The position numbers were made by a program, and so were the translations under genes. Of a stretch of 35,890 nucleotides of DNA, positions 7,444 to 28,534 are shown piece after piece (position 1 is the stretch's first letter; each line of letters opens with the position of its first letter). The notes under the pieces are model-generated. The model saw nothing but the letters and a program-made list of their open reading frames with translations. It searched no databases and was not told the origin of the DNA. This stretch comes from Actinomycetota bacterium (GTDB lineage Bacteria > Actinomycetota > Acidimicrobiia > Acidimicrobiales > Ilumatobacteraceae): assembly GCA_030685215.1 (NCBI GenBank), contig JAUXQB010000219.1:1-35890 (forward strand). The letters run 5' to 3'.

Positions 7444-9566
7444 GAAGGGGGCAGGGTACTCGTTGCGGCGTCGGGCGACAGTTCGGTGTCGTCGGTGCGC
7501 ACCACACGACCGCCGGGGTGGCGGGTGGCGGCGATGGCGGCCGCACGCTTGCGCCGGTTCTGGCGCACGTGACGCACCCACCAGGTGAGCACCACCAGCA
7601 GCAGCGCGCCGGTGATGAGGTTGCCCAGCCCGCTGAGTGCGTTGACGTTGGCGACCAGCGGCACCGGTGGCGCCAGCTCGGAGTCGCCGATGGGGGTGAA
7701 CACCTGCAGGGTGACGGGGATGCTGCCGCGGGTGCGTGCTTCGATCCGCACGCGCACCTCGGTGAACGACTGCGGCGGCAGCAGCACGGTCTGGTCGCCG
7801 TCGGGGAACAGCAACTTCGACGAGCTCATCCGCACTCTCACGGTGAGCGGGTCGTCGCTGGTGTTGCGCAGCTTGATCGGCACGGTGGTACTGCGGCCGG
7901 TGAGGGTGAACGAGAAGCCGTCGGGCACCTCGATGGCGTCGCGCACCTCGGCGTACTGAGCGCGCAGATCGGTCGCGAGCTGCTGCACCTGATCGTCGGT
8001 CAACGCGCTGGTGGGCAGCACGGCGATGGTCTGGCTCCACTGCGTGGCCCGCGGGTCGCCGGGCGGCAACATGCTGCCCGCGCTCAGTGCCTGCAGGGAG
8101 AGCGAGGTGACCAGGTCGAGGCGTTGCGTCAGGTCGCCGCCGACCGACGTCGGCAGCCCGACGACGACCTCGTTGCTGTTGAGGATGGCGTGGTCGGTGC
8201 GCACGCCGAGCACGTCGAGCGTGGTGGGTTCGATGCCCTCGGTGCCGGAGAGCATGGTGGTGATGGCGGCATAGGTGGTGGTGTTCGGCAGCGACAGGTC
8301 GGGGGTGCCGAGCGTGACGCCATGGCGCCGTGGGTCGTCGTCGGCATCGACGATCTCCTGCCGGTAGGCGAGCAGATGGGTGACGGCCATGATGCCGGTG
8401 AGGGCGGGGCTGTTGGTGGCTCTCGCGAGGACCGGGCCGAGCACTCGTTCGGTGACGGCGGCGTCGACCGTGACGCCGGGAGCCACCTGCAGCTGCACGA
8501 GTTGGCTGAGGTCGGTGAAGATGCCGGTGGAGAGCGGCAGCGCATCGAAGACCTCGGGCGTGGTGACCATCAGTCGCGCACCCAGGTCGCGCAGAAGGGC
8601 TGCGCCGTCCTCGCTCAACGGTTGGTCGGCGAACACCATGGTGCGGCGCGACGGGTTGGCGACGGCTTGTGCGAGGTCGTCCTCACCGTCGCGCAACCAC
8701 TGCGTGTAGAGCGCGTCCTGGTCGGCCGCGGCGGCCAGCGACGGGTCGAGCGGCAATCGCGGCGACGAGAGCAGTTCGTTGCGGGCGAGTCCGGCCGCGA
8801 GGCGCGCGGCGAGCGCCTCCCCTTCGGACCCGAGGTCGGCGACGGCCAGCAGCAGTGCCGGCGGCACGCGAACGGCCACCGGGTGGTCGCCCACTTCCAG
8901 CAGGTCGGCCAAGTGCGTCAGCTCCGCGACGGTGGCGTCGTCGATCTGCACGTCGAGCGCGTCGCCGCCGAGCACGACGGGCGAGGTGGTGGTCATCGCG
9001 ATGGCCACCGGCAACGGCACCAGTGTCGGCTCGTCCTCGGTGGGCAGCCGATGGACGAAGGTGGTGAGCTCGGCGAGCACTTCGCCGCCGTCGATCACCT
9101 CCACCAGCACCGGGTACAACCCGGCCTGGGGCAGTTGCAGTGCCTCGGCCGTGCGCGCGGTGGTCTCGGTGGGCACGGTGACGGTGAGCTGCCCGGCCGC
9201 GGGTGACGGCACCGAGGCCAGTGGCAGCTCGACACTGTCGCCGCCGCGCACGAGCGTGCCCTGCTGCACGTCGGCCACCTCCAGCCGTGTGACCACCGGA
9301 CGGTAGGCGGTGACGACGATGGCCGCGTCGGCGTAGTTGGCGGCATCGAGTGGTGGCGTGAGGGTGGGGAGGTCGAGCACCATGGTGACCGTGCCGTCGG
9401 CGGCCAGGTCGAAGGGGGTCTGCGAGATCAGCCCGATGCGGATGGCCAACGCAGTCGGCGACCCGCTCGGGCGCGGCGCCTCTGCGCCGGTGGGCGACGC
9501 GACCGCGAGCACGACCGCGGCCGCAATGACCGCGCGCGTGGCTCGGACCAGCGCGGGGCGGCTCAT
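7440..9566 (-). CDS. DUF6049-family large secreted, membrane-anchored protein
   Basis: The 708-residue protein has an N-terminal signal peptide (about residues 1-28, RATRAVIAAAVVLAVASP then an AEA-like site). A long external region rich in beta-type sequence follows, then one membrane helix near the C-terminus (ITGALLLVVLTWWV) and a basic cytoplasmic tail of about 50 residues. Position between pcnA and the MviN-type gene matches mycobacterial Rv3909, and the layout agrees with DUF6049. The function is unknown; association with cell-wall synthesis is inferred from the neighbourhood. It overlaps both neighbours by 4 nt (ATGA and GTGA), indicating one operon. Confidence 0.8.
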   Translation of the reverse strand: MSRPALVRATRAVIAAAVVLAVASPTGAEAPRPSGSPTALAIRIGLISQTPFDLAADGTVTMVLDLPTLTPPLDAANYADAAIVVTAYRPVVTRLEVADVQQGTLVRGGDSVELPLASVPSPAAGQLTVTVPTETTARTAEALQLPQAGLYPVLVEVIDGGEVLAELTTFVHRLPTEDEPTLVPLPVAIAMTTTSPVVLGGDALDVQIDDATVAELTHLADLLEVGDHPVAVRVPPALLLAVADLGSEGEALAARLAAGLARNELLSSPRLPLDPSLAAAADQDALYTQWLRDGEDDLAQAVANPSRRTMVFADQPLSEDGAALLRDLGARLMVTTPEVFDALPLSTGIFTDLSQLVQLQVAPGVTVDAAVTERVLGPVLARATNSPALTGIMAVTHLLAYRQEIVDADDDPRRHGVTLGTPDLSLPNTTTYAAITTMLSGTEGIEPTTLDVLGVRTDHAILNSNEVVVGLPTSVGGDLTQRLDLVTSLSLQALSAGSMLPPGDPRATQWSQTIAVLPTSALTDDQVQQLATDLRAQYAEVRDAIEVPDGFSFTLTGRSTTVPIKLRNTSDDPLTVRVRMSSSKLLFPDGDQTVLLPPQSFTEVRVRIEARTRGSIPVTLQVFTPIGDSELAPPVPLVANVNALSGLGNLITGALLLVVLTWWVRHVRQNRRKRAAAIAATRHPGGRVVRTDDTELSPDAATSTLPPS

Positions 9567-10306
9567 CGGAGTTCCAGTTCGTACACGCGCAACTGCTCAC
9601 CGAGCCGCCGGAAACCGAACTGCTCGTACAACGCGAGGGCAGGCTCGTTGTCGACGGGCGTGTTGACGAGCACGCGCTGCACGCGCCACCGAGCGGCCCA
9701 CTGCAGGGAGTCGTGCACCAGCGCCCGTCCCAGTCCCTGCCGCTGCAGGGTCGGGTGCACCGCGAGGCGCTGCAGGAAGCCCTGCTTCGCGTCGCGTCCG
9801 CTGATGGCATACGCGCCCGACGGGCTGCCGGCGCTGCGCGCCCGATGTCGCGGGGTGGCCGTGCACACCCCGTCGATGGCGTGGGCGTCGAGGGCCCAGT
9901 CGGTGCCGAACGCGGCCAGATCGATCGCACTTGCGGCGACATGCTGATCGGTCGCCAACCGGTGAGTGGCGGCGAGGGGGCCGAGTCCTGCGATCCGCCT
10001 GCTGCGTGACGGCTCGACATGTGCGAGCAGCACCAGCTCCTGGATGCATCGGTAGCCGGCCGCCTCGGCGCGGTGTGCCGCCGTCGCGGCCAGTGCGGTG
10101 GTGCGCACTGTGGTGTAGCCGAGCGAACGGAGCCGGTCGCCCCACTGCTGCAGATCGGTGAGCGACGGCAGCTGTGCCTGCTGGTAGAGGACCAGTTGTG
10201 CGGTGGTGGGCTGGTACGACCACTGCTGCACGCGACAGGAGACGCCGGAGCCGCGCAGCACCAGCGTGGGGCGTTCCAGGTTGCGCTGGTCGGCCTCGCT
10301 CTTCAC
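9563..10306 (-). CDS. GNAT-family N-acetyltransferase (two-lobed)
   Basis: The 247-residue product carries a clear C-terminal GNAT fold: LQRLAVHPTLQRQGLGRALV (motif A with the acetyl-CoA loop RQGLGRA), then NTPVDNEPALALYEQFGF. The N-terminal 130 residues resemble a degenerate second lobe (WGDRLRSLGYTTVRTTAL, HRAEAAGYRCIQELVLL). The substrate is unknown. In mycobacteria a MutT-like gene holds this place. GTG at 10306 is preceded by TACCGT with a 7-nt gap, fitting a leaderless transcript. It is divergent from the HDAC-like gene and heads the operon with DUF6049 and DegV. Confidence 0.85.
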   Translation of the reverse strand: MKSEADQRNLERPTLVLRGSGVSCRVQQWSYQPTTAQLVLYQQAQLPSLTDLQQWGDRLRSLGYTTVRTTALAATAAHRAEAAGYRCIQELVLLAHVEPSRSRRIAGLGPLAATHRLATDQHVAASAIDLAAFGTDWALDAHAIDGVCTATPRHRARSAGSPSGAYAISGRDAKQGFLQRLAVHPTLQRQGLGRALVHDSLQWAARWRVQRVLVNTPVDNEPALALYEQFGFRRLGEQLRVYELELR

Positions 10307-10313
10307 GCTCGTG

Positions 10314-10319
10314 ACGGTA
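10314..10319 (-). promoter_or_regulatory. -10-like box, leaderless start of GNAT-DUF6049-DegV operon
   Basis: TACCGT on the minus strand ends 7 nt before GTG 10306. The same hexamer and spacing recur before the genes starting at 18049 and 24969. Confidence 0.55.
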
Positions 10320-10391
10320 GCTGCTCGCCGACCCGCAGGTACCTCGCCGGCCGTGTCGGTTTCGGACGGAGACGGGTGCAGGTCGGGCCGA

Positions 10392-10397
10392 TAGCGT
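10392..10397 (+). promoter_or_regulatory. -10-like box, leaderless start of HDAC-pcnA unit
   Basis: TAGCGT ends 7 nt before GTG 10405, in the 98-bp divergent gap. Confidence 0.5.
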
Positions 10398-10404
10398 CGC
10401 GAGA

Positions 10405-11421
10405 GTGACCGTGCTGTTCGCCACTCATACTGCGTATCTCGACCACCTGGCCGGGCCGCGCCACCCGGAACGCCCGGAGCGGTTGCAGGCGGTGCTCGAC
10501 GGAGTGCAGCTGGCCGGTCTCGTCGACGCCATCGAGCCGCTCGAGCCGGTGGCGGCCACGCGTGCCGAGCTCGAGCTGGTGCACCCGACGGCGTACCTCG
10601 ATCGCATCGAGGGCATCTCTGCGGCAGGCGGTGGCCGGCTCGATGCCGACACCTACGCGAGCCCCGGCTCGTGGACCGCGGCAACCTTGGCGGCCGGCGC
10701 GGGGCTCACCGCGGTGCGCGCACTGCAGCAGGGTCGCGGCGACGCGGCCTTCTGTGCCGTGCGCCCTCCGGGGCACCACGCCACTCGCGACGAATCGATG
10801 GGCTTCTGCTTCGTCAACAACGTTGCGGTCGCCGCTGCGGTGCTGGCCGAGCAGGGCGAGCGAGTGCTCATCTTCGACTACGACGCGCATCACGGCAACG
10901 GCACGCAGGCGGTGTTCTACCACGACCCGCGCGTGCTGTTCGTGAGCCTGCACCAGTGGCCGCTCTATCCCGGCACGGGGCGTCACACCGAGGTCGGCGA
11001 GGGTCCCGCCCGCGGGCGCACGGTCAACATCCCGCTCCCGCCCGGTGCCACCGGCGACGTCTACCTCTACGCCTTCGACCAGCTGGTGGCCCCGATCGCG
11101 GAACGGTTCGCGCCCACGTGGGTCATCGTGTCGGCCGGGTTCGATGCACATCGCAACGACCCCATCACCGAGCTCGCGCTGGCCGCCGGCGACTACGCAC
11201 CGCTCACGAAGCGCGTGCTCTCGCTGGTGCCACCCGGTCGCCGGCTGGTGATGCTCGAGGGCGGCTACGACCTCGATGCGCTCACGTTCTCGTCGGCCAC
11301 GGTCATGCGTGAACTGGCCGACGAGCCGGGTACGCCGTTCGAGCACGCCACGTCGGGTGGGCCGGGTGGTGGCGCCGTGCGCCAGGCGCTCGACTACTGG
11401 CTCGTCGAAGACCTGCTGTGA
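10405..11421 (+). CDS. Histone-deacetylase-like amidohydrolase (class II HDAC/acetoin-utilisation family)
   Basis: This is a 338-residue zinc hydrolase with family landmarks in order: HPERPERLQAV (20-30), RPPGHHA with His124/125, FDYDAHHGNGT with metal ligands Asp160 and His162, the third ligand Asp247 in AGFDAHR, and the catalytic-tyrosine loop GGYD at 286-289. Bacterial members deacetylate small amines (polyamines) or proteins; the substrate here is not predictable. The start GTG follows a leaderless-type -10. Its stop overlaps the pcnA start (GTGA), so the two are co-transcribed. Confidence 0.95.
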   Translation: MTVLFATHTAYLDHLAGPRHPERPERLQAVLDGVQLAGLVDAIEPLEPVAATRAELELVHPTAYLDRIEGISAAGGGRLDADTYASPGSWTAATLAAGAGLTAVRALQQGRGDAAFCAVRPPGHHATRDESMGFCFVNNVAVAAAVLAEQGERVLIFDYDAHHGNGTQAVFYHDPRVLFVSLHQWPLYPGTGRHTEVGEGPARGRTVNIPLPPGATGDVYLYAFDQLVAPIAERFAPTWVIVSAGFDAHRNDPITELALAAGDYAPLTKRVLSLVPPGRRLVMLEGGYDLDALTFSSATVMRELADEPGTPFEHATSGGPGGGAVRQALDYWLVEDLL

Positions 11422-20217: not shown

Positions 20218-23196
20218 ATGACGGACTTCCGCCGAGATTCGGGCAACTCCCGCGATTCCGGCCGCGATCGCCCGGCGCCACGGCGCGGCGACGGTCGCGT
20301 GCCACCACACAACTTGAGTGCAGAGGAGAGCCTGCTCGGCGCACTGCTGCTGTCGCGTGAGGTGGTGGGCCAGGTCGCGGAGCTCGGCGTGCAGGTCGAG
20401 CACTTCTACAAGCCGTCGCACCAGCACATCTACTCGGCGATCCGCGGGCTGATGGCCAGCGGTCAACCGGTCGACGTGGTCACCGTCGCCGACGAGTTGC
20501 GCCGCAACGGGCTGATCGAGGAGATCGGTGGTTCGCAGGCGTTGCTCGAGCTGCAGAACGCCACGCCGGCCATCTCCAACGCGAGCCGCTACGCGAAGAT
20601 CGTGCAGGACACGGCGGTGCTGCGCCGGCTGATCAGCGTCGCCGGCGAGATCACCGAGATCGCCTACCTGGAACCCGACGACGTCACCAAGGCGCTCGAC
20701 GAAGCCGAGACCAAGGTGTTCGAGGTCGCCGAGGATCGCGTCATCGACTCGACTCGTCCGCTCAGCGACCTGCTGCCGCTGGCGATGGACAAGCTGCAGG
20801 AGACGTTCGAGCGCGGCGACACCATCACCGGCACCGCCACCGGCTTCAACGACCTCGACGAGATCCTGTCCGGCTTGCAGCCGAGCACCCTCAACATCAT
20901 CGGCGCCCGCCCCGCGATGGGCAAGTGCGTCGCGTGGGACACTCCTATCGCCGACCCGCGCACCGGGGTCATCCGCACCGCGGCAGAGTTGCTCGACTCG
21001 GCGTTGCTGATGCCAGAAGTGCCGCTGGTGTCGCTGGCCGACGACGGCTCGCTGGTCGAGATGATGGTGAGCACCCTCATCGACGACGGGGTGAAGCCGC
21101 TCTACCTGGTCGAAACCGAGTCGGGTCGACGCATCCGCATCACTGCCGTTCACCCGCTGCTGTCGCAGCACGGTTGGCGTCCGCTCGAGCACCTGGCCCC
21201 GGGCGACTTCATCGCAGCACCGGCCATCCTGCCGGTGTTCGGCGACAGCGAGTTGACGCCCACGCAGCTCGGCGACCTCATCGGTCAGGCGCGTGCCTGC
21301 GCGGTGGTTCCGGGCGAGGTGTTCACTGCACCCGAGGCGCAGATCGAGCAGTTCCTCTCCGGCTGGTTCGGCGCCGCACCGTCCGAGGCTCGTGGCCGCT
21401 CGGTGCGCTGCGCCGACTGGAGCGCGGCCGGCCAGGTCGCCCACCTGCTGCTGCGCCTCGGCGTCGGATGCACTCGTCGCGAGGTCACCGACGGGGTGAT
21501 GGTCACGGTGGCAGCTCCCGTGCTCACGTTGCCGATGGAGGCGTGGGACGACGTCGTCAAGGCGAAGGGCGAACGCTCATGGGCGTCCATCAGCGAGGCG
21601 GCCGGGAAGTCGAGGCACCACAACTGGCATCCGTATCGCCGTCGCCTGCAGCGCGACACCGTGGCACTGCTGGCCGACGTGCTCGACGACGATCGCCTGC
21701 GGTGGTGGGCGTCGCCCGCGGTCACCTGGGACCGCATCACGTCCATCACGCCCGTGGGCGACGACCGCGTCATCGACTTCACGGTGCCGCAGTTGCACAA
21801 CTTCGTGGCTGCCGACCTGTTCGTGCACAACACGGCGCTGGGTCTCGGCATCGCCACGCACGTCGCGAAGAACACGTCGAAGCCGGTGCTGGTGTTCTCC
21901 CTGGAAATGGGCCACGCCGAGCTCACCCAACGTGTGCTGTCGAGCGAGGCCGAGGTCGAGTCGCAGAAGCTGCGCAGCGGTCGTCTGGTCGAGGCCGACT
22001 GGACCAAGATCGGTCGCGCGATCAACCGCATCGACAACGTGCCGCTGTACCTCGACGACAACCCGCGGGTCACGGTCATGGAGATCCGCGCCAAGGCTCG
22101 CCGGCTGAAGGCTCGCCACGGTGGCCTCGCCCTCATCATGATCGACTACCTGCAGCTGATGAGCGGCGGCATGAACAGCGAGAACCGCCAGCTCGAGGTC
22201 AGCGAGATCAGTCGTGGCCTGAAGATCCTCGCTCGCGAGCTCGACGTGCCCATCATCGCCCTCAGCCAGCTCAGCCGTAACTTGGAGAGCCGCGCCGACA
22301 AGCGCCCGATGCTCGCCGACCTCCGCGAGTCCGGCTGTCTCACCGCCTCCACGCAGCTGGTGAGGGCCGACACCAACCAGCCGGTCACGCTGGGCGAACT
22401 GGTCGAACAGGGTGCCACCGACGTGCCGGTGTGGTCGCTCGACGAGCACTACCGGCTGGTGCAGGGCACGGTCACCAACGCATTCAGCAGTGGCGTGAAG
22501 GAAGTCTTCCGGTTGCGCTTCGCGTCGGGCCGGGTCATCGAAGCCAGCGGCAACCACCCGTTCCTGTCGCTCGACGGCTGGGTGCGCGTCGAGGCCATGC
22601 TGGTCGGCGACCGCTTCGCCGGTGCCCGCCGCCTGCCGACTGCTGCGGCCCCGCATACTGCGTCGATGCTCGACACGACGTCGAACCTGGACGTCGACAG
22701 CGTTCCTTCGGCGGTGTGGGCGCACGTGCTCCACAAGGCGTTACCAGATGCCGGCATGAAAGAGAGCGAGCTCTCGACAGCGCTGGAGATGCCGCACGGT
22801 GGTTCGGCGCTGTACGAGTCCGATGTGTCACGGGCCTGGTTGGGCCGCGTGGCCCAGGCAACCGGCGACCAGTGGTTGACCGACCTCGCCACCTCCGACG
22901 TGCTGTGGGATCGCCTGGTCGAGATCGAGTCGATCGGCGAGATCGAGGTGTTCGACGCCACGGTCAAGCCGCATCACAACTTCGTGGCCAACGGGCTGGT
23001 GGCGCACAACTCGCTCGAGCAGGACGCCGACGTGGTGATGTTCCTGTACCGCGACGAGGTGTACAACCGCGACTCGCCCGACAAGGCCAGCGCTGAGCTC
23101 ATCATCGCCAAGCACCGCTCCGGCCCCACCGGCGTCGCCCGACTCGTGTTCCGAGGCCAGTACACCAAGTTCGGCAACGCCGCCCGCGGGGTGTAG
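20218..23196 (+). CDS. dnaB: Replicative DNA helicase DnaB with two inteins
   Basis: The 992-residue precursor is expected to splice to about 465 residues, a normal DnaB length. The N-terminal domain starts at PPHNLSAEESLLGALLL. The RecA-like helicase has Walker A GARPAMGK/TALG, SLEMGHAELTQRVLS, Walker B LALIMIDYLQLMSG, and LADLRESG/SLEQDADVVMFLYRDE with a C-terminal KHRSGPTG. Intein 1 interrupts Walker A after GK (residues 237-538). Intein 2 interrupts RESG/S (707-931). Neither half of the ATPase can work before splicing, so helicase activity depends on both. The host reading frame is continuous across all junctions. The upstream gap carries DnaA-box-like sites. Mycobacterial DnaB is also known to carry inteins. 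Confidence 0.97.
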   Translation: MTDFRRDSGNSRDSGRDRPAPRRGDGRVPPHNLSAEESLLGALLLSREVVGQVAELGVQVEHFYKPSHQHIYSAIRGLMASGQPVDVVTVADELRRNGLIEEIGGSQALLELQNATPAISNASRYAKIVQDTAVLRRLISVAGEITEIAYLEPDDVTKALDEAETKVFEVAEDRVIDSTRPLSDLLPLAMDKLQETFERGDTITGTATGFNDLDEILSGLQPSTLNIIGARPAMGKCVAWDTPIADPRTGVIRTAAELLDSALLMPEVPLVSLADDGSLVEMMVSTLIDDGVKPLYLVETESGRRIRITAVHPLLSQHGWRPLEHLAPGDFIAAPAILPVFGDSELTPTQLGDLIGQARACAVVPGEVFTAPEAQIEQFLSGWFGAAPSEARGRSVRCADWSAAGQVAHLLLRLGVGCTRREVTDGVMVTVAAPVLTLPMEAWDDVVKAKGERSWASISEAAGKSRHHNWHPYRRRLQRDTVALLADVLDDDRLRWWASPAVTWDRITSITPVGDDRVIDFTVPQLHNFVAADLFVHNTALGLGIATHVAKNTSKPVLVFSLEMGHAELTQRVLSSEAEVESQKLRSGRLVEADWTKIGRAINRIDNVPLYLDDNPRVTVMEIRAKARRLKARHGGLALIMIDYLQLMSGGMNSENRQLEVSEISRGLKILARELDVPIIALSQLSRNLESRADKRPMLADLRESGCLTASTQLVRADTNQPVTLGELVEQGATDVPVWSLDEHYRLVQGTVTNAFSSGVKEVFRLRFASGRVIEASGNHPFLSLDGWVRVEAMLVGDRFAGARRLPTAAAPHTASMLDTTSNLDVDSVPSAVWAHVLHKALPDAGMKESELSTALEMPHGGSALYESDVSRAWLGRVAQATGDQWLTDLATSDVLWDRLVEIESIGEIEVFDATVKPHHNFVANGLVAHNSLEQDADVVMFLYRDEVYNRDSPDKASAELIIAKHRSGPTGVARLVFRGQYTKFGNAARGV
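20926..21831 (+). other. Intein 1 in DnaB Walker A loop
   Basis: This is a 302-residue intein. Block A begins CVAWDTPI. Block B is RITAVHPLL with the TxxH motif. Block F is VIDFTVPQLHNFVAADL and block G ends VHN. The downstream nucleophile is Thr, which is also the Walker A Thr of the host, so all splicing residues are present. The central part of about 150 residues keeps stretches resembling the second half of a LAGLIDADG homing endonuclease (VPGEVFTAPEAQIEQFLSG then AGQVAHLLLRLGVG). The acidic catalytic DG pair is missing and the first motif survives only as LGDLIGQ. The nuclease is probably dead. Confidence 0.93.
22336..23010 (+). other. Intein 2 in DnaB RESG/S site (mini-intein)
   Basis: This is a 225-residue intein. 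It begins CLTASTQL, has block B VIEASGNHPFLSLDGW (Ser in place of the usual Thr, His kept), block F EVFDATVKPHHNFVANG and block G LVAHN, with Ser as the downstream nucleophile. The site is the one used by the cyanobacterial Ssp DnaB intein. Only about 100 residues lie between the splicing halves, with no LAGLIDADG motif, so this is a mini-intein. Confidence 0.93.
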
Positions 23197-23394: not shown

Positions 23395-23886
23395 TCAGGA
23401 CGAGGGCGTGAGCCAGCGACTGAGGATGACGATGTCCTGCAGGTGGCCGGTGTCGTCGCGCACCTGGCCCTGCATCGTCGCCTCCACCTGGAAGCCGAGG
23501 CTTAGGAACGTTGCCTGCCCGCCGGCGTTGGCGGCCATCGTCTCGACGGTGAGCTTCTCGATGCCCATGCTCGCGGCCAGTTCCACGCCTGCCTCGGCCA
23601 ACGCCCGCCCCACACCGCGACCACGGTGACTGCTGCGCACCAGCACGCGCACGTCGGCGGTGTGTGCCGACCACCCCACGCCGCGCGACACCGTCACCAG
23701 GCCGCCCACCGATCCGTCGTCGTCGACCGCCACGAGTCGTCGTTCGGGCACGGCCTGGGTCCAGCCGGCGACCTTCACCTGCGAGATGAGGGTGCGATCC
23801 ACGAACACGCGGTCCTGCTCGGAGATGGACTCGACGAACGCCGCCAACGCGTTCCGGTGATCCGCGGCCAGCGGCTCGATCCTCAC
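23395..23886 (-). CDS. GNAT-family N-acetyltransferase
   Basis: The 163-residue protein has GNAT motif A as ADVRVLVRSSHRGRGVGRALAE, motif B as EKLTVETMAANAGGQATFLSLGF, and an N-terminal VRIEPLAADHRNALAAFVES. The substrate is unknown. I chose GTG 23886 because TAATGT ends 7 nt upstream; GTG 23895 (VPAVRIEP) is the alternative. Its first nine codons and promoter lie in a 47-bp sequence repeated exactly at 28022-28068, which marks the edge of an inserted block. Confidence 0.85.
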   Translation of the reverse strand: MRIEPLAADHRNALAAFVESISEQDRVFVDRTLISQVKVAGWTQAVPERRLVAVDDDGSVGGLVTVSRGVGWSAHTADVRVLVRSSHRGRGVGRALAEAGVELAASMGIEKLTVETMAANAGGQATFLSLGFQVEATMQGQVRDDTGHLQDIVILSRWLTPSS

Positions 23887-23904
23887 CGCCGGCACATTAG
23901 CGCC
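23858..23904. repeat. 47-bp direct repeat, left copy (5' end and promoter of GNAT gene)
   Basis: All 47 bases are identical to 28022-28068, in the same orientation, 4.16 kb apart. This copy contains the GTG start, the -10-like box and the first codons of the GNAT gene, so it is attached to the intact gene. Confidence 0.95.
23894..23899 (-). promoter_or_regulatory. -10-like box for GNAT gene (inside repeat)
   Basis: TAATGT on the minus strand ends 7 nt before GTG 23886. Confidence 0.5.
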
Positions 23905-23914
23905 ACCCCATCGG

Positions 23915-24883
23915 TCAGTCCGACGGCACCGAGCCGAGCATGATGGTGGCTTCGTCGGCGACCCGGCCCGCGGTGTCGACGGCACGGATCACGAGCTGGT
24001 CGTCGAAGACGGCGACATCGGTGAAGTGGATGAACGAGTACGCGACCGCCGTGAAGTCGTCCTCACCCGTGCGCCGAGTGCCGGAACCGGCGCCCGACAC
24101 CACGTACGTGACACCGTTGATGGGCTCGCTGCGCTGGTAGTCGTGGTCGTGTCCGGAGAGCACGAGCTGCACGCCGTAGCGCTCGAAGATGGGCGAGAAC
24201 GTCCGGCGGGCGTCCTTGCTCGACCCCTGGTAGCCGGCCGAGTACGGAGGATGGTGCAACGCCACGATCTTCCAGTTCGCCTCGCTGTTCGCCAGTGTCG
24301 ACTCGAGGAAGGTGAGCTGCGCGGCGTCGTCCATCTCGGTGGAGTCCAGGCCGACGACGAGCACCTCGCCAAACGTGCGCGCCCAGTATCGACCGGGCAT
24401 TCCGAGGTCGTGCATGATCTGGTCGCCCTGATCGCTCTTCACGTCGTGGTTGCCCAGGATCGCCAACAGCTCCGCCCCCTGGTCGAGCACGCCGGCGAAC
24501 GGCTCGTCGACCAGTGACTGCAGCTTCGAGGGGTCACCCGATGGGTAGACGAGGTCGCCCAGCAGGAGCAGTGCGTCGAACGGGTACTGCTCGCCGATCC
24601 GTTCGATTGCCACGCCCGTGCTGTCCAGCCGCGAACCAGCGTCGCCCGTGTCGCCGGCGGCAGCGATGTGGAAGTTCGGCTGCTCCGGGAACGGGAGGTA
24701 CGGCTCGGTCGAGCTCGGCCCGCCCTTCCAGTGGGTCAGGTACGAGATGATCTGACGGCGGTACTCGATGAACGCGATCGCGCCTGCGGTGATCACCACC
24801 ACGGAGATCACCGAGATCACTCTTCGAATCCTCCGCCTGGGGCGGCGTGGACGTGACTCGACGATGATCGACGCATCGTCCAT
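23915..24883 (-). CDS. Membrane-anchored metallophosphatase (purple-acid-phosphatase-like)
   Basis: The 322-residue product has a very basic N-terminus (RPRRPRRRIRR), one signal-anchor helix (about residues 23-43) and an external calcineurin-type phosphatase domain. All five metal-site blocks are visible in purple-acid-phosphatase style: AAGDTGDAG, LGDLVYPSG, LGNHD, HHPPYSAG and GHDHDYQR. It should hydrolyse phosphoesters outside the membrane; the substrate is unknown. ATG 24883 gives the N-terminal basic segment directly before the helix and follows GACGAT by 6 nt. It is divergent from the phosphotransferase-like gene (85 bp apart) inside the inserted block, which suggests a linked kinase/phosphatase function. 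Confidence 0.88.
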   Translation of the reverse strand: MDDASIIVESRPRRPRRRIRRVISVISVVVITAGAIAFIEYRRQIISYLTHWKGGPSSTEPYLPFPEQPNFHIAAAGDTGDAGSRLDSTGVAIERIGEQYPFDALLLLGDLVYPSGDPSKLQSLVDEPFAGVLDQGAELLAILGNHDVKSDQGDQIMHDLGMPGRYWARTFGEVLVVGLDSTEMDDAAQLTFLESTLANSEANWKIVALHHPPYSAGYQGSSKDARRTFSPIFERYGVQLVLSGHDHDYQRSEPINGVTYVVSGAGSGTRRTGEDDFTAVAYSFIHFTDVAVFDDQLVIRAVDTAGRVADEATIMLGSVPSD

Positions 24884-24889
24884 GACTGC

Positions 24890-24895
24890 ATCGTC
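24890..24895 (-). promoter_or_regulatory. -10-like box for metallophosphatase gene
   Basis: GACGAT on the minus strand ends 6 nt before ATG 24883. It is a weak hexamer, supported mainly by spacing. Confidence 0.3.
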
Positions 24896-24955
24896 AGCCC
24901 GGAGCGATGCGCCGCACAGGGACTTACGTCCCGAGACACGGGCCTCGGATGCACG

Positions 24956-24961
24956 TACCGT
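24956..24961 (+). promoter_or_regulatory. -10-like box, leaderless start of phosphotransferase-like gene
   Basis: TACCGT ends 7 nt before GTG 24969. GAGACA at 24933-24938 is a possible -35 with a 17-nt spacer. Confidence 0.5.
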
Positions 24962-24968
24962 GCGAAGT

Positions 24969-27098
24969 GTGAGAGACCACGCGTTGGTGGTGGAGCTTTC
25001 GGACCCGGTCGCGACCACGTTGGGCCTGACCGGTGCGAAGGCCGCGAACCTCGGACGCTGCGCGGGAGCAGGCATGCCCACGTTGCCTGGATTCGTCGTC
25101 ACCACGGAAGGGGTGGCGCGAGGGTGGAGCGATCAGGAGTTGCTCGACCAGCTGCACGCGGGATGGCAGCACATCGGGGGTGCGTCGGCGGCGCTCGTCG
25201 TGCGCTCCTCGTCGACGATCGAGGATGCCGGACGGTCCTCCATGGCCGGCCGGTTCGTCTCCGTCCTCGACGTTCGTGGGTGGGACGCGTTGCTGGCCGC
25301 CGTCGTTCGTGTGGTCGCATCCGCCGACGACGTGCGCGACGCGGACGGCGTCGCGAGACCGATTGCGGTGCTCGTCCAGCCGCAGCTCGACGCGGTGATC
25401 AGTGGTGTCATGTTCGCGGTCGACCCGGTGACCGGGGCGCGTGACCGCGTCGTGGTGGAGGTCGTGGCCGGGCAGCCCGCCGCCCTCGTCGGCGGAGTCG
25501 CGACGGCGGACCACTACGTGCTGTCGGCGCGTGGACGAACCCTCGAGCACACCACTGCCGCAGGCGCAGTGCCACTCGCCGGGCGAGTGCGCCGGGATCT
25601 CGTCCGCCTCGCCGAACGGGCGAGCCGCCTCTTCGGCGTGCCACAGGACCTCGAGTGGGCGGTGGATGAGGCCGGTCGCCTGTGGTTGCTGCAGAGCCGG
25701 CCGGTCACGGCGATCGCCGAGACGGGCACCGGTCCGCAGCCGATCCTCGGCCCGGGCCCTCTCGCCGAGACGTTCCCGGAGCCGCTCAGCCGGCTGTCGG
25801 TCGATCTCTGGCTCGATCCGCTGCGTGACGGCATGGTGCGTGCGCTGTCGGCGACCAGAGCGGCCTCGCAGGAGTCCATCGCGCGGTCGCCGGTGGTGTC
25901 GGCCGTCAACGGCCGCGCTGCCGTCGACCTCGAACTGATCGGGATGACCGCGCCGCATCGATCGTGGCGTCGACGGATCTCGCCGAGCGCCACGGCTCGG
26001 CGGCTCGCGACCGCGTGGCGAGTGGGGCGGCTCCGGGTCGCCCTGCCGCGGTTGGCCGAGGCCATCCTTACCACCGTCGACGCACACCTCAGTGATCTCG
26101 GAGCGCTGACGACGCGCTCCGACGACGATCTGGTCGACCTGCTCGTCCGTTCACGCGCGGAGCTGGCCACGGTGCACTCGTACGAGATCCTGTGCGGCAT
26201 GCTCGCCCGGCCCGGCGATGTCGCACCGCCGGCGCCGCTCGTCGCGTTGGAGGCGCTCGGTCGCGGGCGGGATGCAGGACTCGACGACGCCGAGATCGTC
26301 GCCGCCGAGCCGGTGGTGCTGACGCTGTCGCCCCCGTCGTTGGTCCATTCCGTTGTGCTCCCCGTCGTTGCTCCGCGCCCGTCGACCGGTGAACGGTCGG
26401 TCGACGAGCTGTCCGATCGGGACGGCCTGCGTGTGCGCATTCGCTGGTTGCACGAGCTGCAGACCCGGATCGTGCTCTTGCTCGATCGCCGGTGGAGTCA
26501 CCACACCCGGCTCGGCGCTGCCGGGCTGGTGGCGCATCTCTCGCTGGCCGAACTGCAACGCGTCGCTGCCGGTGGTTCGCCACCGCCCGACCTGCTCTCG
26601 CGGCTCGACGAACCGACGTCGGCGCCGTTGCCGCCGGCCTTCCGGTTGAGCTCCTCCGGCGCGATTCGCGCGGTGCACCATCGTCATCGCGGACGGGACG
26701 GCGATGGCCTGGCTGCCGGTGGAGGGCGCGGGATGGGTGTCGTGACGTCGCGACCCCTCATCGGGGTGTCGATGCGCGCGGGCGAGCCGAGCGCGGGATC
26801 GGTCCTCGTGATCGAGCACCTGGAGCCGCAACTGGCGGGCGTGCTGCCGCACCTGGCGGGTCTGGTCGGTGAGACGGGAAGCGCGCTCTCCCATCTCGCG
26901 ATCCTCGCCCGCGAGATGGGAGTGCCGACGGTGGTCGGTGTCACCGACGCACGTCGCCGATTCCCACCGGGTACGAGCGTGGTCGTCGACGGCGATGCCG
27001 GCACGGTCGACATCGTCGATCCCGTCGGCCCGATGCCGAGTCATCCGCAGGTACCCGAGAGCGATGCCGTCGTCGCCCGGGCGGGGCGGCCGTCGTGA
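24969..27098 (+). CDS. PEP-synthase-like dikinase phosphotransferase without PEP barrel (rifampin-phosphotransferase-like layout)
   Basis: The 709-residue protein starts with a PPDK_N ATP-grasp region: LTGAKAANLGRCAGAGMP with Lys24, VRSSSTIEDA with Arg79, DLEWAVDE and LWLLQSRPV with Gln242 and Arg244. A helical middle part of about 370 residues follows that I do not recognise. The C-terminus is a swivelling phosphohistidine domain (TGSALSHLAILARE, His642; VPTVVGV). The PEP/pyruvate TIM barrel is missing, so it cannot be a normal PEP synthase. ATP-grasp, substrate domain and His domain is the layout of rifampin phosphotransferase, so phosphorylation of a small molecule is a reasonable guess. 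GTG 24969 is chosen by TACCGT plus 7 nt; longer starts would run into the divergent gene. Confidence 0.82.
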   Translation: MRDHALVVELSDPVATTLGLTGAKAANLGRCAGAGMPTLPGFVVTTEGVARGWSDQELLDQLHAGWQHIGGASAALVVRSSSTIEDAGRSSMAGRFVSVLDVRGWDALLAAVVRVVASADDVRDADGVARPIAVLVQPQLDAVISGVMFAVDPVTGARDRVVVEVVAGQPAALVGGVATADHYVLSARGRTLEHTTAAGAVPLAGRVRRDLVRLAERASRLFGVPQDLEWAVDEAGRLWLLQSRPVTAIAETGTGPQPILGPGPLAETFPEPLSRLSVDLWLDPLRDGMVRALSATRAASQESIARSPVVSAVNGRAAVDLELIGMTAPHRSWRRRISPSATARRLATAWRVGRLRVALPRLAEAILTTVDAHLSDLGALTTRSDDDLVDLLVRSRAELATVHSYEILCGMLARPGDVAPPAPLVALEALGRGRDAGLDDAEIVAAEPVVLTLSPPSLVHSVVLPVVAPRPSTGERSVDELSDRDGLRVRIRWLHELQTRIVLLLDRRWSHHTRLGAAGLVAHLSLAELQRVAAGGSPPPDLLSRLDEPTSAPLPPAFRLSSSGAIRAVHHRHRGRDGDGLAAGGGRGMGVVTSRPLIGVSMRAGEPSAGSVLVIEHLEPQLAGVLPHLAGLVGETGSALSHLAILAREMGVPTVVGVTDARRRFPPGTSVVVDGDAGTVDIVDPVGPMPSHPQVPESDAVVARAGRPS

Positions 27099-28024
27099 AC
27101 CGGCGCCTGGCCCGCGGGTTGGCACTCGCGGTCGCGGCGTTCGTGCTCGCCTTCTCCGGCCTGTACGTCCTCATCTACCTGGCTCGCTGGGAGTGGAACC
27201 GAGCGATCATGTCGGGGTTCATCTTCCTCGCGATGCTCACCGTCGTGTCGACGGTGACGATCCTGCGTCGCCTGCGAGAGCTGTCCGAGCTGTGGTCGTC
27301 ACAGCACGCCGAGCCGGACGAGACCGTGCACGCAGCGCTGGGTTCGGCGGGGCGCGATGTGGCCTCGCGCCGATTCGAGTGGCTCCGTCCCGATCGGCCA
27401 TCGGTGTTCGTCCCCATCCTGCTCGGCACCGGCATCGTCCTGTCGGCGTTGGCGTATCTCATCGAACGCATCGCCGGCCTCGTGGCCAGTGCGACGACCG
27501 ATCGGCGAACGGCGGCCCTCCTGCCGCTGCACCTTCCCCTCGCGACGCCGACCGCGCCGGCACGCCTGCCCGATCCATCGGTTGGACTGCGTGCCCCCGG
27601 TTCGACGGTACTTGGGCGGTCGGACTCGGCCGAGCGCCGGCGGGCTCGGCGTCGGAGCCTCGCGTTGCTGGTGGTCATCGTGCTCGCGGTGGGGGCTGGC
27701 ACCGAAACCATCCGCCGGCTCACCCAGTCCGGCACCGGCGACATCGTCAGCCCCGGTGCGACCACCATGACGATCGAGATCCGCACGACCGGTGAGCGGA
27801 CACCGGAGACGCTGATGTCGGCGCTGTGGACGGTCTGTGCCGGCCGGCTGTCGAGCGAGGTGCGGATCACGTCGATGCGATCGGACGGCCCGACCGTGAC
27901 GATCACCATCGATCACGCGCTGGGCGAGACCGGTCGTCGTCGCCTGGTCGGTTGCCTGGAGGACCTCACCATCGAGCGCGTCCTGGCCGAGGTGACGCAC
28001 GTCCACTCGGAGACGACGAACTGA
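27095..28024 (+). CDS. Four-helix membrane protein of unknown function
   Basis: The 309-residue protein has predicted helices at about 8-31, 37-57, 104-130 and 188-206. A soluble loop of about 45 residues lies between helices 2 and 3, a Pro/Arg-rich loop between 3 and 4, and a C-terminal soluble region of about 100 residues contains two Cys. I do not recognise a family. It starts by GTGA overlap with the phosphotransferase-like gene, so the two are surely co-translated and perhaps physically linked. Its stop codon is the first three bases of the right repeat copy, so the natural C-terminus may have been set by the insertion junction. Confidence 0.75.
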   Translation: MNRRLARGLALAVAAFVLAFSGLYVLIYLARWEWNRAIMSGFIFLAMLTVVSTVTILRRLRELSELWSSQHAEPDETVHAALGSAGRDVASRRFEWLRPDRPSVFVPILLGTGIVLSALAYLIERIAGLVASATTDRRTAALLPLHLPLATPTAPARLPDPSVGLRAPGSTVLGRSDSAERRRARRRSLALLVVIVLAVGAGTETIRRLTQSGTGDIVSPGATTMTIEIRTTGERTPETLMSALWTVCAGRLSSEVRITSMRSDGPTVTITIDHALGETGRRRLVGCLEDLTIERVLAEVTHVHSETTN

Positions 28025-28068
28025 TCCGCGGCCAGCGGCTCGATCCTCACCGCCGGCACATTAGCGCC
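28022..28068. repeat. 47-bp direct repeat, right copy (orphan GNAT 5' fragment)
   Basis: This is an exact copy of 23858-23904. On the minus strand it carries TAATGT (28058-28063), GTG at 28050-28048 and about nine GNAT codons, then runs into the 3' end of the membrane-protein gene in antisense. It therefore holds a promoter and start with no gene behind them. Confidence 0.95.
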
Positions 28069-28108: not shown

Positions 28109-28534
28109 ATGACACCCGGCTATCGACTCGAGATGACCACACCACCGGTGGAGGCATACCTCCGGCTGCGCAAGGAGTCGGGACTCACACCGAAGACGGA
28201 GGCGCAGGCGGTGGCCGGGCTGCCGGGCAGCTGGGCGGCGTGCCACGTGGTGCACGAGGCCACCGGTGAGGTGGTGGGCATGGGTCGCGTGCTCGGCGAC
28301 GGCGGCTGGTACTTCCACGTCGTCGACATGGCCGTGCTGCCCGAGCACCAGCGCCGCGGCCTCGGCGACGCGATCCTGCAGGCGTTGCTCGACCGCATCC
28401 GCGAGGTGGCGCCACCCGGCGCGTGGGTGAACTTGCTCGCCGACCCGCCCGGCCGAGCGCTCTACGCACGGCACGGCTTCACCGACACCGCGCCGCGGTC
28501 GGTCGGCATGGCGCGCTTCATCGACGCTCCGTAG
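28109..28534 (+). CDS. GNAT-family N-acetyltransferase (small)
   Basis: The 141-residue single-domain GNAT has VVGMGRVLGDGGWYFHVVDM, motif A AVLPEHQRRGLGDAILQALL with the acetyl-CoA loop QRRGLGD, and a C-terminal GRALYARHGF. The substrate is unknown. It lies just outside the inserted block. Before the insertion it would have been the divergent neighbour of the GNAT gene at 23395-23886. It ends 3 bp before the convergent DUF305 gene. Confidence 0.92.
   Translation: MTPGYRLEMTTPPVEAYLRLRKESGLTPKTEAQAVAGLPGSWAACHVVHEATGEVVGMGRVLGDGGWYFHVVDMAVLPEHQRRGLGDAILQALLDRIREVAPPGAWVNLLADPPGRALYARHGFTDTAPRSVGMARFIDAP

Follow-up and report, generated by a model that had tools for sequence, protein, structure and literature searches.

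An exact 47-bp direct repeat frames a conserved three-gene module beside an acetyltransferase gene in an Ilumatobacteraceae genome

We analyzed a block of three genes that lies between the two copies of an exact 47-bp direct repeat in the genome of an Actinomycetota bacterium of the family Ilumatobacteraceae (assembly GCA_030685215.1). The window, that is, the whole stretch of 35,890 nucleotides analyzed here, is C131, one of the 340 contigs in a 4.32-Mb genome bin that is 92% complete with 3.7% contamination. The left repeat copy occupies positions 23858-23904 and the right copy positions 28022-28068, both on the plus strand; they are identical at 47 out of 47 positions, in direct orientation, with a start-to-start distance of 4164 bp. 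The left copy covers the 5' end of GNAT1, a GNAT-family acetyltransferase gene on the minus strand (23395-23886; Pfam Acetyltransf_1, E 2.1e-11; listed as 23395-23985 among the open reading frames). A second GNAT-family acetyltransferase gene, GNAT2 (28109-28534, plus strand; Pfam Acetyltransf_7, E 4e-13), follows to the right of the block. Three complete open reading frames lie between the copies. The first encodes a calcineurin-like (purple-acid-phosphatase-like) metallophosphatase (23915-24883, minus strand; Pfam Metallophos, E 2.4e-16; purple acid phosphatases in PDB, E 1.2e-10), the start of which was picked by eye from several candidates. The second (24969-27098, plus strand) encodes a phosphotransferase resembling phosphoenolpyruvate (PEP) synthase and rifampin phosphotransferase (Rph), with an unassigned acceptor, and the third (27095-28024, plus strand) a membrane protein with the motif RWEWNRA, identified by membrane-protein alignment and locus comparison, whose gene overlaps the preceding one by 4 bp and had no match in Pfam or NCBIfam. 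The preliminary description of this DNA, which had reported an exact repeat framing three complete genes whose stops meet the borders, was correct on these points: the membrane gene ends in a TGA that makes up bases 1-3 of the right copy, and the phosphatase stop codon (23915-23917) sits 10 bp inside the block from the left copy. The tail of the membrane protein after a conserved GC is 22 aa long as compared to 19-24 aa in 8 relatives (read by eye), indicating that the membrane gene was not cut short. We likewise agree that the block carries no recombinase, since Pfam gave phosphatase and PEP-synthase-type domains for two of the three genes and no match for the third.

The repeat ended abruptly on both sides, with an identity of 0.32 and 0.25 in the 60-bp flanks. 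BLAST of positions 23600-24000 against the own genome found the 47 bp at two places only, both of them the window copies, and the 20-bp core of the repeat (up to 3 mismatches) had 2 matches in the window against a mean of 0.00 in 100 shuffles. An exact 25-bp piece of the repeat had no match in the collections genome_contigs and viral_contigs, from which near records are possibly absent. A census of spaced exact repeats (at least 26 bp long and at least 300 bp apart) covered 631,931 bp, namely the window and 48 unmasked stretches sampled from the same genome; 12 further stretches that read N were excluded. The 47-bp repeat was the sole one of at least 26 bp with unrelated flanks on both sides; in the others, one flank or both were related (L281, L222 and L217), or the repeat was a 99-bp one at a contig start (L243). 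Some 20-bp repeats with unrelated flanks were also present in the census. No inverted repeat was found joining the two block ends, such as the terminal inverted repeats that define a DNA transposon. The core motif of integron attC sites is GTTRRRY; we read no GTT on either strand of the repeat by eye, and the repeat folded no better than shuffles (z of 0.49 and -0.86), without the strong hairpin of the attC type. We consider the repeat genuine and apparently recent, and it is for these 47 bp only that a recent event is certain.

GNAT1 probably starts at the GTG at 23886, 13 nt downstream of a -10-like TAATGT that lies wholly within the repeat. With this start, the repeat contains the -10 element, the start codon and about nine codons, so that the earlier claim that it duplicates the promoter, start and first codons of GNAT1 holds with a refined start, and the right copy would be a spare start and -10 element directed toward the 3' end of the membrane gene. 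The homologues of GNAT1 disagree on the start, one (L235) aligning with 23886 and another (L234) with a GTG at 23895. Judged from sequence, leaderless messages seem common in this genome: TANNNT stood 12 or 13 nt before 64 of 998 candidate starts (364 coding-like open reading frames) as compared to 1 of 2184 internal positions. A similar element, TACCGT, lies 13 nt upstream of the GTG of the phosphotransferase gene at 24969. Shine-Dalgarno stretches were hardly enriched (9% of 47 single-start genes vs 6.4% in the null; 12% vs 9%), and we therefore dropped an argument for a native phosphatase-GNAT1 junction from a Shine-Dalgarno-like stretch before GTG 23895 (-9.2 vs -3.3 kcal/mol) that requires the present arrangement; it carries no weight after calibration. 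The missing -10 element before GNAT2 was likewise dropped as an argument, TANNNT being found within 150 bp of only 34% of 110 divergent genes.

We scanned for the pattern of the membrane-protein alignment; 65 stretches matched, among them 39 loci in named genomes. A phosphotransferase-like match was present directly upstream of the membrane gene in all 39 loci (some cut by contig ends), the 4-bp overlap between the two genes was seen in the window and six relatives, and the membrane protein was split into two genes in many loci. The pair occurred in Acidimicrobiia, Nocardia and Frankia, among others. The phosphotransferase shares the PPDK_N domain and the swivelling PEP-utilizers mobile domain (Pfam) with the superfamily of PEP synthase, Rph and the RedH/PigC ligases, and its closest solved structures are PDB entries named phosphoenolpyruvate synthase. 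It had no match to the C-terminal PEP barrel and differs from these enzymes in that every NCBIfam match was far under the curated cut-off (Rph, 111 of 999 bits; RedH, 142 of 1350) and in its coupling to the membrane protein in all loci seen. On sequence evidence, the phosphotransferase-membrane protein pair is an uncharacterised functional unit conserved in several Actinomycetota. We found the phosphatase in 4 of the 39 loci, with its gene divergent in two (L168 and L174) and downstream in the other two (L196 and L203), although it may escape detection where contigs are short; the divergent trio as in the window was thus seen at 2 loci. The three proteins of L168 are 62, 54 and 41% identical to those of the window, and the neighbours there are PAP2-like and acyltransferase-like genes (identified by eye). 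The occurrence of the trio at loci with other neighbours, which had been proposed as a check, indicates that the block is a conserved module. In L174, from another Acidimicrobiia genome, two GNAT-like genes directly follow the divergent trio (9922-11213). None of 20 other module loci tested had a flanking repeat above the shuffle level. Carriage by plasmids or viruses was not borne out: viral contigs had no relative, and among 72,556 plasmids a single partial match to the membrane protein turned up, on an Embleya replicon of 3.1 Mb that also has a phosphotransferase-like match 138 bp away. A search of PADLOC for a defence role gave no match for five proteins at E <= 0.01.

Within the class, the membrane protein had matches in 14 of 395 genomes, including its own, several of them weak. 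The whole module was absent from the 14 genus-mates searched (63-99% complete): the phosphatase was found in none, the membrane protein gave one weak partial match (G003, E 2e-4), and the phosphotransferase gave partial superfamily matches only. The best homologue of GNAT1 among 81 relatives had 41% protein identity. GNAT1 matched 58 and GNAT2 32 of these 81 genomes (E <= 0.001, own included), mostly at the superfamily level, which made the two genes unsuitable as anchors for an empty site; at E <= 1e-9, GNAT1 matched 7 of the 395 class genomes, again including its own. The preliminary description had proposed looking in related genomes for an empty site with a single repeat copy, and we found none. 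DNA searches of the 14 genus-mates returned short, chance-like matches only (best E 1.9e-5), and no divergent GNAT1-GNAT2 pair was present in the 10 GNAT loci examined. The chromosomal core ssb-rplI-dnaB lies to the left of the locus, and we took the corresponding loci behind dnaB from the 14 genus-mates (L154-L167). The 11 loci that span at least 2.6 kb held unrelated DNA, with none of GNAT1, the three module genes, GNAT2, DUF305 or CopCD; one genus-mate locus had a glyoxalase-like gene behind dnaB. This region as a whole is therefore specific to the lineage, which leaves the genus without an empty site. The differences between genus-mates behind dnaB (window 23197 onwards) suggest a region of turnover. 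The dnaB gene of the window (20218-23196) has two inteins (Intein_splicing, 2 stretches), and dnaB varies among the genus-mates, with an uninterrupted frame of ~470-490 aa in several and a longer frame in others. The window contains no tRNA and no Rfam match; a further double-GNAT protein is encoded at 9563-10684 on the minus strand. Our literature searches gave no description of the locus.

The tetranucleotide usage of the block was in the lowest 1% of the background, with 2 of 211 windows lower (5 of 93 with an earlier, smaller background). It is the phosphotransferase gene that makes the block atypical (4 of 487 windows lower); usage was ordinary in both the phosphatase (995 of 1127 lower) and the membrane gene (603 of 1131), and these two look compositionally native. 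For phosphotransferase-like genes at their own loci, the windows lower were 0/15 in L168, 1/33 in L174, 18/33 in L178 and 17/32 in L187, and 4/33, 12/32, 4/32, 6/33, 7/32 and 7/32 at six other loci. Composition was thus too mixed to serve as proof of a recent gain.

The preliminary description had read the repeat as the footprint of an insertion into the 5' end of a gene with regeneration of the target. The same duplication would arise had nothing but the 47 bp moved, and the repeat alone therefore does not demonstrate that the block moved. We slightly, and tentatively, prefer a short templated copy of the GNAT1 5' end made beside a module that was already resident. The module would have been in place beforehand as two compact divergent units, the phosphatase followed by GNAT1 on the left and the phosphotransferase, membrane gene and GNAT2 on the right. 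A recent event would then have pasted 47 bp of the GNAT1 5' end (leaderless promoter, start and first codons) into the space that separates GNAT2 from the membrane gene, either through template switching or because a break captured a short fragment of the genome itself. On this view the block would have stayed in place throughout and would simply lie between source and copy. The direction of copying, the resident state of the module and the mechanism are what we infer. We prefer copying because it accounts for both borders at stop codons. The left border would fall near the phosphatase stop since GNAT1 is close behind the phosphatase, the border being the end of the copied stretch; the right border would be where the copy went into a short intergenic gap, at a chance position possibly aided by microhomology, for which the identity of the membrane gene TGA with the first bases of the copy allows 3 bp. 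The native-looking phosphatase and membrane gene and the repeat-free module at 20 of 20 other loci also incline us slightly toward copying, as do the GNAT genes after the module in L174 and the Ku protein encoded in the own genome. With Ku present, end joining would be available in this host. Such a copy is also economical, as 47 bp move and not 4.1 kb. The structure has the marks of a short dispersed duplication by template switching or double illegitimate recombination, i.e. a short exact direct copy nearby, unrelated flanks and no mobility genes, and it differs in that the 47 bp would have been placed across 4.1 kb, exactly at a gene stop codon, by a proposed mechanism. Short-patch double illegitimate recombination events are reportedly known in Acinetobacter baylyi. 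The reference lists of PMC8116780 and PMC5312590 touch on illegitimate recombination. Several observations weigh against copying beside a resident module. No genome was found with the module between GNAT1 and GNAT2 and without the right copy, and a GNAT gene adjoined the module in only 2 of 41 sequences. The unusual composition of the block, through its phosphotransferase gene, and the absence of the module from the 14 genus-mates are what a recent gain would predict. Finally, the sample had no second dispersed duplication of at least 26 bp with unrelated flanks on both sides, and nothing in it points to copying as a frequent process.

Insertion of the module with target duplication is the main rival and, all routes taken together, somewhat less probable. 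The parts of the preliminary reading that stood are the occurrence of the three genes at other loci with different neighbours, the preserved -10 element and start of GNAT1 and the absence of the module as a whole from genus-mates, while neither an empty site nor a flanking repeat at other loci came to light; mobility of the module by means of the repeat is unproven. One route would be the joining of a linear module at a staggered break within the promoter region between GNAT1 and GNAT2, with fill-in of 47-nt overhangs and end joining producing a target duplication. This route needs no recombinase, makes the identity of the copies automatic, and agrees with the presence of Ku, the sporadic distribution of the module and the low-scoring composition of the block. 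We nevertheless consider it unlikely, as a random fragment must have ended within ~10 bp of the outer stop codon on both sides, the composition of two genes out of three looks native, and phosphotransferase-like genes are atypical at some of their own loci too. A transposon would also leave an exact direct repeat on both sides; this block differs in having neither terminal inverted repeats nor a transposase. Target duplications of transposons are usually far shorter than 47 bp. Integrative islands with att repeats resemble the locus in their direct repeats of tens of bp and a regenerated 5' end of the target. A circle with an att-like 47-bp core could have recombined at the GNAT1 5' end through a recombinase acting in trans, which would preserve the -10 element and start of GNAT1 and would make the stop-codon borders natural if the membrane and phosphatase genes of the circle converged on the core from either side. 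This corresponds to the cassette of the preliminary description. We rate this route lower still. The block has bounding direct repeats but no recombinase gene, and no integrase, tRNA target, second site or empty site was found for this block of only 4.1 kb; the core occurs nowhere else in the own genome or, as the exact 25-bp pattern, in the two collections, and the 20 other module loci have no boundary repeat. An identical donor core would further need near-identical GNAT1 DNA, against a best homologue at 41% protein identity, and relatives on viral contigs and plasmids were limited to the one partial match. It is improbable, in particular, that the block is a recombinase-free, stop-to-stop cassette of ~4.1 kb that circularises and inserts at a leaderless promoter and start, regenerating both through the 47-bp core.

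Tandem duplication of repeat and block, followed by deletion of the second block to a 47-bp remnant, would give the same structure by ordinary recombination. This would require two events, the second ending precisely at the repeat edge, and nothing of a duplicated block was left beyond the 47 bp (flank identity of 0.25), which makes it very improbable. A wrong contig join across a 47-bp overlap has to be considered in a 340-contig bin whose contig ends do overlap. At contig ends, exact overlaps measured 60 bp at the start of the window, 141 bp at its end, and 81 and 141 bp elsewhere, with one more of 224 bp at 97%; in contig C5 (L243), bases 1-99 recur exactly at 628-726, probably an assembly k-mer signature. 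We take this pattern to be that of a MEGAHIT-like multi-k assembler. At 47 bp the repeat matches none of its k values and falls short of the k-mers that were used, which makes a wrong join across it unlikely, and both borders are biologically sensible; we give an artefact the least credence of all.

Movement of the module would make it an uncommonly clean example of mobile cargo that carries no recombinase of its own and keeps the promoter and start of its target. If only the 47 bp moved, as we slightly prefer, a single short copying event would mimic the footprint of a mobile cassette, which would call for caution in repeat-based detection of islands. Either way, the phosphotransferase and its membrane protein represent an uncharacterised functional unit.

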